From positions 1-64,000 of the forward strand of contig JADLFL010000036.1 of NCBI GenBank assembly GCA_020845575.1: DNA of 64,000 bases, read 5' to 3'. Numbering within the stretch: the stretch's first letter is position 1; each line of letters begins with the position of its first letter. Origin of the DNA: Acidobacteriota bacterium. Its GTDB lineage: Bacteria; Acidobacteriota; Vicinamibacteria; Vicinamibacterales; Vicinamibacteraceae. Both the position numbers and the translations under genes were made by a program. Positions 58,947 through 63,142 of this stretch are shown piece after piece. The notes below the pieces were generated by a model. The model made no database searches. It was not told the origin of the DNA and was given only the letters and a program-made list of their open reading frames with translations.

Positions 58947-60062
58947 ATGCTCCTCATCGACCGCGTGTTGTCCGTGCTGGCGCTGCCAACGCCTGCGATG
59001 CCCCTGCTGATCGGGGGGTGCGGTGCGGGTCGCACGCACGCACTGCACGCGGTGGTCGCGCGCCTCGCGGCCGACACCACGCCCGTCTACCTCGACGTCG
59101 AACGCATCGCCACCACGCCCGAGCAGTGCTACAGGTCACTCCTGCGGACCGTCCGCGTGGCCGACGAGGGTGATGTGCTGCCGGCGCCCGCCTCGCTGAC
59201 GTCCCCGCGCGCGGCGTTCGACGCCATCCTCGCCCTGCTCACCACCGCACGCGCCGCGTCCGGACGACGCTTCACGTTCCTGCTCGATGAAGTGCTCGAC
59301 CTCCGCACGTTCGAGAGCTTCCCCGGTCTCCGGTCACTGATGGCGGAAACGGGCACCGCCGTGTCGACGTCTCCGAACCGCTTCGTGCTCGCGACGCGTT
59401 TCGCGCAGCGCGGCGCGCGTCTCGCGAAGAGCTGGCCCGGCATCACGAGCCTGTCATTGGACGATGCGGGCAACGAGGCGGATGGTCGCGCGGCGTCGGC
59501 GTTCGGCGGACTCGATCCGCTCGAAGAGCAGCAAGTGCTGGCGCTCACGGGCGGACGTCTTGGCTACGCGGTGATGGTGAGCGACGCGCTGAAGCAGGCA
59601 CGGCGCCACGGCCTTGCCGATCCCGTCGGCGCGCTCACCGAGCAGATGCTCCCGGGCAGCGCCCTCGAGCGGCGACTGCGACTGTCGTACGAAGTGCGTC
59701 TCCAGCGTGCTCGCGGCTACGGCGCGCTGCGCGCGATCCTCGACATCCTGGCCGAACAGGAGCCGCTGACGCTGACGCTGATCGCGCAACGCCTGCACCG
59801 GACACCCGGTTCGACGAAGGACTATCTCTCGTGGCTGCTCGACGTCGATCTGCTGCGTGTGGAGCGCAAGCGCTACACATACGCCGACCCGCTGTTGCGT
59901 CTGTGGGTGCGCCTGAACAACGGCGCTGACGTGCCGGGCGACGGCACCGTGGCGCGCGAGACGCAACGCCATGCCATCGATCGCCTGTCGAAGATGCCGG
60001 CGGCTGCCGTCGCCGTCTCCCGGCCCGCGTCACCCTCCGGCGGCATCATCGAGATCGATTGA
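58947..60062 (+). CDS. ATPase with C-terminal winged helix (AAA/archaeal-ATPase-like)
   Basis: A 371-residue protein. The P-loop at residues 23-31 is GGCGAGRTH, an unusual Walker A with Arg-Thr in place of Lys-Thr/Ser. The Walker B strand is FTFLLDEVLDL, a sensor-like region is RFVLATRF, and the C-terminal ~110 residues look like a winged helix-turn-helix (LDILAEQEPLTLTLIAQRL, STKDYLSWLLDVDLLRVE) followed by the domain end YADPLLRLWVRL, as in archaeal-type ATPases of the DUF234 class. Because the lysine is replaced, ATP hydrolysis is uncertain. Its 3' end overlaps convergent rnc by 33 bp. Confidence 0.7.
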   Translation: MLLIDRVLSVLALPTPAMPLLIGGCGAGRTHALHAVVARLAADTTPVYLDVERIATTPEQCYRSLLRTVRVADEGDVLPAPASLTSPRAAFDAILALLTTARAASGRRFTFLLDEVLDLRTFESFPGLRSLMAETGTAVSTSPNRFVLATRFAQRGARLAKSWPGITSLSLDDAGNEADGRAASAFGGLDPLEEQQVLALTGGRLGYAVMVSDALKQARRHGLADPVGALTEQMLPGSALERRLRLSYEVRLQRARGYGALRAILDILAEQEPLTLTLIAQRLHRTPGSTKDYLSWLLDVDLLRVERKRYTYADPLLRLWVRLNNGADVPGDGTVARETQRHAIDRLSKMPAAAVAVSRPASPSGGIIEID

Positions 60063-61016
60063 CCCGTCTCGCAGGGCCGTGAGCGCCGCGCGCGCCGCCT
60101 GCTGCTCCGCTTCCTTCCTGCTGCGTCCCGACGCCTCTCCCAGCACGCGCCCGCACACCTGCACGTCGACTGCGAACGTCTTGTCGTGATCGGGCCCCGA
60201 CTGCGCAACGATGCGATACGTGGGTGGCGGGAAACGGCGCGACTGGAGGTACTCCTGAAGCGACGACTTGAAGTCGCCGGCACCAGCCTCTGCGAGACCT
60301 GCCGTACGCACCTCGTCGAGCAGCGGCGCGAGCAGTCGCAGGATGCACGTCCGCGCGGCGGCAAGCCCTCCATCGAGGTACACGGCCGCGATCACGGCTT
60401 CACACGCGTCGGCCAGCATCACGGGCTTCTGACGCCCGCCCGTCTTGTCTTCGCCACGCCCGAGTCGCAGGTGTTCTCCGAGTTCGATGCGATCGGCCAC
60501 GCGCGCCAGCGCCGAGTACGACACCAGCGAGGCCTTGACCTTGCTCTTCTGCCCTTCATCCGACTCCGGGAACTCGCGGAACACGAGATCCGCGATCACG
60601 AACCCGAGCACGGCATCGCCGAGAAACTCCAGCGATTCATTGGTCGCGGATACGCCGAGGCCGTCTTCATGCGCGCGCGATCGATGCGTGAGCGCGAGCT
60701 CGAGGTGCGCGCGATCCCTGAAGCGGTAGCCGAGGTGCGCTTCGAGCGACGCCAGGGCACCAGCCGATGCGTCGCCAGACTCGACATCCGTCGCGGCGCG
60801 CGACTCGACGCGATCCAGCAGTTGCCGGGCCTCGTCCGCTTCCTCGGCGGGAACCGTAATGCGGAGCTGACCGAAGAACGCGACCGGGACCGGCAGCACC
60901 GATCGCAGCGTCGATCGCTCGATCGCCGGAAACAACCCTTCGGCCGCGAGCAATCCGTACACCACCGCCGCTTCGGGCTCTGACGATGTGGTCCGTACGA
61001 CCACGCGGCCTGTCAT
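60030..61016 (-). CDS. rnc: ribonuclease III with N-terminal DUF2007 domain
   Basis: RNase III cleaves double-stranded RNA, including rRNA precursors. The 328-residue protein has an additional N-terminal domain (residues 1-~70, VVVRTTSSEPEAAVVYGLLA, then QLRITVPAEEADEARQLL) of the DUF2007/signal-transducing type. The RNase III domain begins at ~88, with the signature NESLEFLGDAVLG at 126-138 (Glu130, Asp134) and DACEAVIAAVYLD; a dsRNA-binding domain is at ~245-320 (FKSSLQEYLQSRR, GRSRKEAEQQAARAAL). Usual bacterial RNase III is ~225-250 residues. There is no internal ATG near residue 80, so the fusion appears real. The ATG overlaps the phosphatase stop (4 bp). Confidence 0.92.
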   Translation of the reverse strand: MTGRVVVRTTSSEPEAAVVYGLLAAEGLFPAIERSTLRSVLPVPVAFFGQLRITVPAEEADEARQLLDRVESRAATDVESGDASAGALASLEAHLGYRFRDRAHLELALTHRSRAHEDGLGVSATNESLEFLGDAVLGFVIADLVFREFPESDEGQKSKVKASLVSYSALARVADRIELGEHLRLGRGEDKTGGRQKPVMLADACEAVIAAVYLDGGLAAARTCILRLLAPLLDEVRTAGLAEAGAGDFKSSLQEYLQSRRFPPPTYRIVAQSGPDHDKTFAVDVQVCGRVLGEASGRSRKEAEQQAARAALTALRDGSIDLDDAAGG

Positions 61017-63142
61017 GCGTCCGCCTGCTTCCCCACCTTCAACACGATCATCGTCATGTCGTCGTGCTGCTCGGCGCCATCGGCGAATTCACGCACGCTC
61101 TCGAAGATCTCGTCGCACAGCGCATCGGGTTCGAGTGCCGCATGCTCCTCGACACAGAGGCACAGGCGATCCTCGCCGTACAGATCGCGCACGCCGTTCA
61201 TCGCTTCGCTGATGCCGTCGGTGAAGAGCACCACCACGTCGCCGGGCGAAAGAGCGATGGTCTGCTCCTTCAGCATCTCCTCGAAGCGCGCGCGCACCGA
61301 TTCCATCCTGACGCCGAGCATCAATCCCTCCGGCGCGAGGAGCCGCGTGCGCGGGAAGGCATCCCCCGCGCGCAGGTGGATGAGCGGCGTGTGTCCCGCC
61401 CGCGCGTGAACGAGCGTGCACGCACGCAGGTCCAGCACCGCGTACGTCATCGTCACGAAGCTGGTGCGTCCGAGATTGACCGAGAGCACGCGATTGACTT
61501 CCGCGAGCAGCGCGCGCGGCGATTGGTGCGTCTTCGACAGCGCGAGCATGAGGCCCTTGAGCTCGGCCATGTAGAGCGCAGCGGAGGCGCCCTTGCCCGA
61601 GACGTCGGCCACGAGCAGGCCGATGCGGTCCTCGTCGAGCGGGAAGAAGTCGCAATAGTCGCCGCCGATCTCGCGTGCCGGCCGGCAGGCCGCCGCCAGC
61701 GTGACGTCGCCGCGACGCAGGGTCTCGGACGGCAGCAGCGACGTCTGGATGTCGCGCGCGATCTGGAGTTCCTGCTGCAGGCGCTCCTTCACGACCTTCT
61801 GTTCGAGCAGTTCCTCGATGTTCTCGACCATCGAGTTGAACGACGTGGCGAGCGCGCCGAACTGATCGCGTGTGCGTACGCGGATGCGGTGCGACAGGTC
61901 CTCGGCCTGCACGCGGCGCGTCCCCTCGAACAGCTCGTGGATCGACCCGGTGATCGAGCGCGCCAGGCTCACGCCCATGACGAACGCCACCGACTGGATG
62001 ACGAGGAACAGGCCGCCGATGATGAGGAGCATGATCAGCAGCATCTGTCCGAACGACATGCCGCCTCCGATCGCCTGCGCCTCCGTGATGCGCCGATAGA
62101 GGTGCGTCAGGTTCGGCTGGATCTGGAGACCGAGCTTGCAGGTCGTCCCGGTGTCCCAGTTGGTCACGTCGAGGACGTTGATCCACGAGAGCGCGTAGGG
62201 CGACGCCTCGATGCGCAACTCGCTGCCTTCGGGTAGCGCGCACGGATCCGTGTTCGACGGGGCCATGCCCAAGCCACCCAGTCTGATGCCCGTTTCCTCA
62301 CGAATCACACCAGCCGTCGCGTCGTCCAGCGGCAGGTCCACGATGATGGCGCGCCGTGCTGATTCGGCAGCGCCAATCCACGACACGCTGCGAACGATCA
62401 GTCGCGCGCCCGCCGACGCGGTGCTCCCCTCCCCCACCGGCACGACGAGCGCCGACGGTCCCTGGCGCAGCAACCATTCAGGGACGGACGTCGGCGGCGT
62501 GCCGTGGTCCCACGCGCCGACGGTGAGCGGGGCAGTCCGTGTGTCGCCGTTCAACGGCAGGAGCGCCACGGAGATGCCGGGGTACGTGCGTCCGCCCGCC
62601 GCGACCTTGCGCGTCAGCAGGTCGCGTACCTCTGCCGACGTGCGCGTCTGCTGGAGTTCGACGGCGGCCATGTCGGCGTACACGCGTCCCTGTGCCTGGA
62701 GGTCGGCGAGTTTCTCCGTGACCAGATAGGAACTGAAGCTGAGCAGCGTCAGCGCGCCGACGATCAGGAAGAACAGGAAAATCAGTGCGGCGGGGACGAC
62801 GCCGATGAAGAAGTACGACAGGATCAGCTTGCGCCGGACGCGCCACAGCAGCCGCAGGCGCAGCACGCGACTGAGTCGCCACACCACGACGACGCCCCCG
62901 ACGATGATGCCGAGGGTGGCGAGGCGCCGGATGGCGTCGAGCGGCGCCCAGTCGGTGAGCGCGAACGTGGCCAGCCACACACACACGCGCACGCCGAGGC
63001 CGATGAGGATCAGACGGCCGGCCCAGTAGTCGAGAAACAGCGCGCGCGGCGACGGCAGGCGAGGCAGTTCGTGCGCAGGGGGCGCTTCGAGGCGCACCGA
63101 GCCGGTGGAGTCAGGCGGCATGCGGTCTCGGCCCCGGTTCAT
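61013..63142 (-). CDS. membrane-bound HAMP/SpoIIE-type serine phosphatase
   Basis: A 709-residue signalling protein. Two N-terminal membrane segments and one near residue 120 (SYFFIGVVPAALIFLFFLIV) precede a ~220-residue extracytoplasmic sensor region; a further membrane segment leads to a HAMP domain (ELFEGTRRVQAEDLSHRI, FGALATSFNSMVENIEELL), a short coiled coil (QKVVKERLQQELQIARDIQ) and a C-terminal PP2C-like SpoIIE/RsbU domain (REIGGDYCDFF, IGLLVADVSGKGASAALYM, VLFTDGISEAMN). Such proteins dephosphorylate anti-anti-sigma factors in partner-switching. No anti-sigma pair is adjacent. It overlaps rnc by 4 bp, an unusual coupling of a sensor phosphatase and RNase III. Confidence 0.92.
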   Translation of the reverse strand: MNRGRDRMPPDSTGSVRLEAPPAHELPRLPSPRALFLDYWAGRLILIGLGVRVCVWLATFALTDWAPLDAIRRLATLGIIVGGVVVVWRLSRVLRLRLLWRVRRKLILSYFFIGVVPAALIFLFFLIVGALTLLSFSSYLVTEKLADLQAQGRVYADMAAVELQQTRTSAEVRDLLTRKVAAGGRTYPGISVALLPLNGDTRTAPLTVGAWDHGTPPTSVPEWLLRQGPSALVVPVGEGSTASAGARLIVRSVSWIGAAESARRAIIVDLPLDDATAGVIREETGIRLGGLGMAPSNTDPCALPEGSELRIEASPYALSWINVLDVTNWDTGTTCKLGLQIQPNLTHLYRRITEAQAIGGGMSFGQMLLIMLLIIGGLFLVIQSVAFVMGVSLARSITGSIHELFEGTRRVQAEDLSHRIRVRTRDQFGALATSFNSMVENIEELLEQKVVKERLQQELQIARDIQTSLLPSETLRRGDVTLAAACRPAREIGGDYCDFFPLDEDRIGLLVADVSGKGASAALYMAELKGLMLALSKTHQSPRALLAEVNRVLSVNLGRTSFVTMTYAVLDLRACTLVHARAGHTPLIHLRAGDAFPRTRLLAPEGLMLGVRMESVRARFEEMLKEQTIALSPGDVVVLFTDGISEAMNGVRDLYGEDRLCLCVEEHAALEPDALCDEIFESVREFADGAEQHDDMTMIVLKVGKQADA

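Follow-up and report, generated by a model that had tools for sequence, protein, structure and literature searches.

RNase III is a nearly universal enzyme whose bacterial form, to our knowledge, seldom carries accessory domains. Among eukaryotes, yeast Rnt1p is a single-domain RNase III with an N-terminal extension. DUF2007 is a widespread family for which we know of no tested function, and the order Vicinamibacterales, in which we find the two joined, consists of poorly studied soil and groundwater Acidobacteriota. Our searches found no literature pairing DUF2007 with RNase III or ribonuclease III (domain databases may still record the architecture), and none on the RNase III of Vicinamibacter or on an RNase III with an additional domain in Acidobacteria. 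Judged by title and the start of the abstract, no related paper concerns a DUF2007-RNase III fusion. In passages of two papers, DUF2007 is an accessory domain of universal stress proteins (PMC3673472, PMC11841066), an add-on module as in the fusion described here but with a different partner domain.

The fusion lies in a stretch of 64,000 nucleotides from an Acidobacteriota genome (contig JADLFL010000036.1), which we call the window (Table 1). Like other bacterial RNase III proteins (TIGR02191; E. coli Rnc), the rnc product has both domains complete and its catalytic acids invariant; it differs in a DUF2007 domain of some 70 residues, added at the N-terminus together with a linker. It shares an extra N-terminal domain with Rnt1p, whose extension is unrelated in sequence as far as is known, the comparison here being of the RNase III part. 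With stand-alone DUF2007 proteins (Pfam PF09413) the rnc copies share the family match and the fold of the solved structure 2hfv, but they are fused to RNase III, form their own clade and carry a T-x-S-x-x-E signature. One fusion event retained throughout an order offers a way into the widespread DUF2007 family, and it suggests an unfamiliar control of RNase III in these soil bacteria.

Table 1. Features of the rnc locus in the window
Feature	Position	Strand	Remarks
rnc, DUF2007-RNase III-dsRBD fusion protein, 328 aa	60030..61016	-	ATG start
DUF2007 domain, residues about 5-72	60801..61004	-	beta-alpha-beta-beta-alpha
Linker, residues 73-90	60747..60800	-	variable
RNase III catalytic and dsRNA-binding domains, residues 91-314	60075..60746	-	
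Membrane HAMP-SpoIIE (PP2C-like) phosphatase gene	61013..63142	-	upstream of rnc; stop overlaps rnc start
AAA-like ATPase gene, with winged helix	58947..60062	+	convergent, downstream of rnc; Pfam matches below cut-off

A DUF2007 domain in frame with RNase III

The C-terminal part of the protein corresponds to a complete RNase III (NCBIfam TIGR02191, 235.1 bits against a cut-off of 166.25), and the dsRNA-binding domain was identified in a domain search. In an alignment of 23 rnc products E130, D134, D203 and E206 are invariant; we take these to be the positions of the catalytic acids of RNase III, whose catalytic motifs are NExLEFLGDAVLG and DxxEAxxA. The top solved match of a full-length model is E. 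coli RNase III (7r97, Z 21.9), and 5t16 and 4oog are also among the fold matches. By these features the rnc gene of the window encodes a complete, housekeeping RNase III with predicted dsRNA cleavage.

The window protein by itself matches PF09413 over residues 6-70 at 15.3-19.3 bits, where the Pfam gathering score is 25.7 bits; E is 0.022 when the whole protein is searched and 0.0013 when only its N-terminus is. The identity of its N-terminal domain is secured by homologous N-domains. In a set of 42, selected from 89 fused relatives, aligned and including that of the window, PF09413 matches all 42 at E up to 0.01, with a best E of 1.7e-11. The sequence-only reading of this locus, that a DUF2007 domain stands in frame at the N-terminus of a complete RNase III, is therefore confirmed by the open reading frame, the TIGR02191 match and the DUF2007 matches of the relatives. 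An artefact of frame or assembly is ruled out by the 89 aligned fusions, which come from 89 genomes. When all 149 genomes of the order were searched with PF09413, 140 gave matches, many of them at the rnc locus and above the cut-off (for example G039:C32, 44.1 bits), and many stand-alone DUF2007 copies were also found. By eye, several stand-alone copies of the order (L140, L142, L144, L145, L146 and others) have a cysteine-rich, zinc-ribbon-like tail at the C-terminus.

Distribution, selection and origin of the fusion

An RNase III gene was matched in 132 of the 149 order genomes, and 129 of these 132 have the fusion, scored as a match to the window protein that starts at residue 14 or earlier. 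The other three are a true loss (G020), a gene at a contig end (G101) and a gene split over contigs (G113), the N-domain fragment of which also sits at a contig end (L107). The fusion is thus conserved across the order; the sequence-only reading had named absence of the extension from closely related rnc genes as what would refute it, and the outcome is the opposite. The 17 genomes with no match were left out of this count; the RNase III family model has no match in 16 of them and two weak ones in G091. In the 13 of these genomes that were tested the phosphatase gene found upstream of rnc in the window is also absent (11) or runs into a contig end (2), so the missing RNase III genes are probably assembly gaps. 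In G091 the two weak matches (39.7 and 33.4 bits) lie in tandem in a single frame of 648 residues (L116:1402-3345, G091:C78), which by eye directly follows a WD40-like open frame; this may represent a decayed tandem RNase III, or the contig may be a contaminant.

The survey for fusions covered the phylum Acidobacteriota. Outside the order, the matches listed among 396 genomes of the phylum, which are the better-scoring ones, all begin at residue 54 or later and so lack the fusion. In the sister orders of the class none of 15 intact rnc genes carries the fusion (17 genomes examined, with the N-domain profile applied to the loci), and their DUF2007 genes, where found, are located away from rnc. 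One record titled Acidimicrobiia (L137, VFZL01000057.1) has the fusion of the order, with an N-terminus identical to that of G049; its title is probably outdated or wrong.

The fused DUF2007 domain is under purifying selection at the protein level. In all eight pairs compared the domain has a lower dN than dS: L002 and L003, for example, give 0.103 and 0.883, and the weakest pair, the window and L003, gives 0.262 and 0.574. Across 89 sequences the domain averages 45% identity, the linker 31% and the catalytic domain 68%. In the 89 aligned fusions residues 7-35 are free of gaps and E15, L22 and A63 are invariant. A16, L23, G27, V55 and A63 are common to fused and stand-alone domains, whereas T10, S12 and E15 are far better conserved in the fused ones (E15 in 44/44 against 12/33). 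Over residues 71-88, within 60747-60806, the linker of the window has 6-29% identity to those of the four relatives of the same genus, although both adjoining domains are well conserved.

A tree was built from 82 columns with DUF2007 domains of both kinds, 44 fused and 33 stand-alone. One branch (support 89/95) has all of the fused domains to one side. The fused or stand-alone state needs one change in this tree, as it does in 87% of 200 bootstrap trees, from a bootstrap that had not settled. Nearest to the fused domains is a stand-alone DUF2007 domain from a sister-order genome, G504. The stand-alone DUF2007 protein of this genome that is closest to them (L169 / L176, G504:C397) scores 52.8 bits with the fused-domain profile. 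The fusion was acquired in one event, and one clean loss was observed. In this class DUF2007 otherwise exists as small stand-alone proteins; in the best explanation the domain joined the N-terminal end of the single housekeeping rnc gene once, in frame, at the base of the order Vicinamibacterales, and was then retained. In G020 (L089) the domain is cleanly lost, the stop codon of the phosphatase gene overlaps the start of the shortened rnc gene, and both flanking genes are retained. In two members of one family (L079, L085) the domain is degenerate and its middle loop is absent.

What the domain may do

We lean towards the view that this lineage-specific DUF2007 domain, kept on a housekeeping RNase III since one fusion, is a cis-acting docking or allosteric module. 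Control of this kind is favoured on two grounds: members of the family are found both as free small proteins and as modules added to universal stress proteins, and a conserved turn is particular to the fused clade. DUF2007 is probably a docking or allosteric module on RNase III, which suggests that the enzyme is here steered by some partner or signal; regulation by the DUF2007 domain itself is plausible. The domain would keep its own binding surface, formed by the T-x-S-x-x-E signature in the turn between beta1 and alpha1 and by the exposed loop of residues 36-49, which carries a near-invariant proline. Through this surface it might recruit a partner protein or bind a small ligand, and so place or tune RNase III. 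The signature could also be structural, as a helix cap. In G020, with the domain cleanly lost, RNase III presumably works without DUF2007. We also considered an extension that binds the RNA substrate, which is unlikely since the fused domain is acidic: only 3 of 89 copies carry a net positive charge.

The closest rival is that the domain serves oligomerisation or anchoring: it would associate with itself or tether the dimer of RNase III to some larger complex, with no sensing of a ligand. This possibility, to which we give a clear minority of our confidence, comes from the predicted fold. A fold search with the full-length model was taken up by RNase III proteins and was uninformative on the N-domain, and with a pTM of 0.60 the relative packing of the domains in that model is not reliable. 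The N-domain was therefore folded by itself, which gave a beta-alpha-beta-beta-alpha model (mean pLDDT 84, with a weak stretch at about residues 36-49). Foldseek returned nothing below E 0.001 for this model. With VIA-align the closest folds belong to ring-building domains from secretion rings, PrgK at Z 9.1 (1.2 A over 58 residues) and EscJ, also at Z 9.1. Next come 2hfv (Z 7.9, 4.9 A over 69 residues), which we take to be a PF09413 member, the rhomboid protease 2lep (cytosolic domain, Z 6.4) and, at Z about 5, ACT and PII-like domains. The ring domains and the rhomboid domain would fit oligomerisation, but these matches are at 12-19% identity in a common small fold, and RNase III already dimerises via its own domain. 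The likeness to PrgK and EscJ is one of fold; the N-domains gave no Pfam match of a ring-building type. The model has the small ferredoxin-like fold of 2hfv, and because other folds score equally high this agreement is not specific. Among the sequences of solved structures, the domain profile found no relative (two designed proteins only, E 0.18 and 0.49), nor did a search with stand-alone DUF2007. A shared small fold does not assign a function to the domain.

A bolder form of control by DUF2007 would be an RNase III that is a signal-gated nuclease, in which a small ligand of the domain or a dedicated partner switches or relocates global dsRNA processing. We hold this rather unlikely. If it were true, it would provide the first function for the widespread DUF2007 family, and by the argument from fused genes a role in regulating RNA metabolism would extend to DUF2007 proteins that stand alone elsewhere.

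The domain might instead be a tolerated passenger, joined to rnc by accident when a stop codon was lost, its role confined to folding or stability. Its loss in at least one lineage (L089), its degeneration in one family and its greater divergence than that of the catalytic part are consistent with this. Purifying selection, signature residues conserved order-wide and a single loss among 132 genomes argue against it, and we consider a passenger improbable.

Neighbouring genes and the start of translation

The stop codon of the phosphatase gene and the ATG of rnc overlap by four nucleotides (ATGA), a real overlap of the two genes that the sequence-only reading had called translationally coupled. 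The convergent gene on the other side overlaps the 3' end of rnc by 33 bases. In 81 of 91 loci of the order a phosphatase gene lies directly upstream of rnc on the same strand, and in 36 loci the two overlap by 1 or 4 nt, with start codons assigned by rule. A shared transcript of the two genes is likely.

From this arrangement it had been proposed that RNA processing answers an envelope signal, which the HAMP-SpoIIE phosphatase would sense and relay to RNase III via DUF2007. The frequent adjacency and overlap are what speaks for such a route. However, of the 15 intact rnc genes in the sister orders, 9 stand directly after a phosphatase gene and carry no DUF2007, and G020 has retained the phosphatase although its rnc has lost the domain. 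Conversely, of the ten order loci lacking an upstream phosphatase one (L090) is at a contig end, and the remaining nine all keep DUF2007. The presence of the pair in sister orders without the domain indicates most simply that the gene pair is older than the fusion, and since fusion and phosphatase come apart in both directions they have been gained and lost independently. Since the pair most simply predates the fusion and can be separated from it, the chief reason to suppose that an envelope signal acts via the domain falls away. SpoIIE-type phosphatases, moreover, act on STAS-domain anti-anti-sigma factors. Nothing in these data ties the phosphatase to RNase III beyond the shared operon. Of the original proposal, the fused accessory domain, its conservation in the lineage and the adjacency of the phosphatase therefore stand, while the envelope signal through the phosphatase is not supported; we rejected it as the main reading and regard it as very improbable.

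That the extension is untranslated or removed, the enzyme beginning near the catalytic domain, has a negligible chance: an ATG or GTG, with GTG codons in the linker of many relatives, occurs at residues 70-95 in 67 of 89 fused genes, but the window gene and 21 others have no such codon and the N-domain is conserved at the codon level, which together rule out an internal start or a mis-annotated extension. The 22 genes lacking ATG and GTG at these residues leave no room for a universal shorter product. In the window gene, where an internal start near the catalytic domain had been said to be absent, this is borne out: after a GTG at residue 40 there is no in-frame ATG, GTG or TTG up to the start of the RNase III part.
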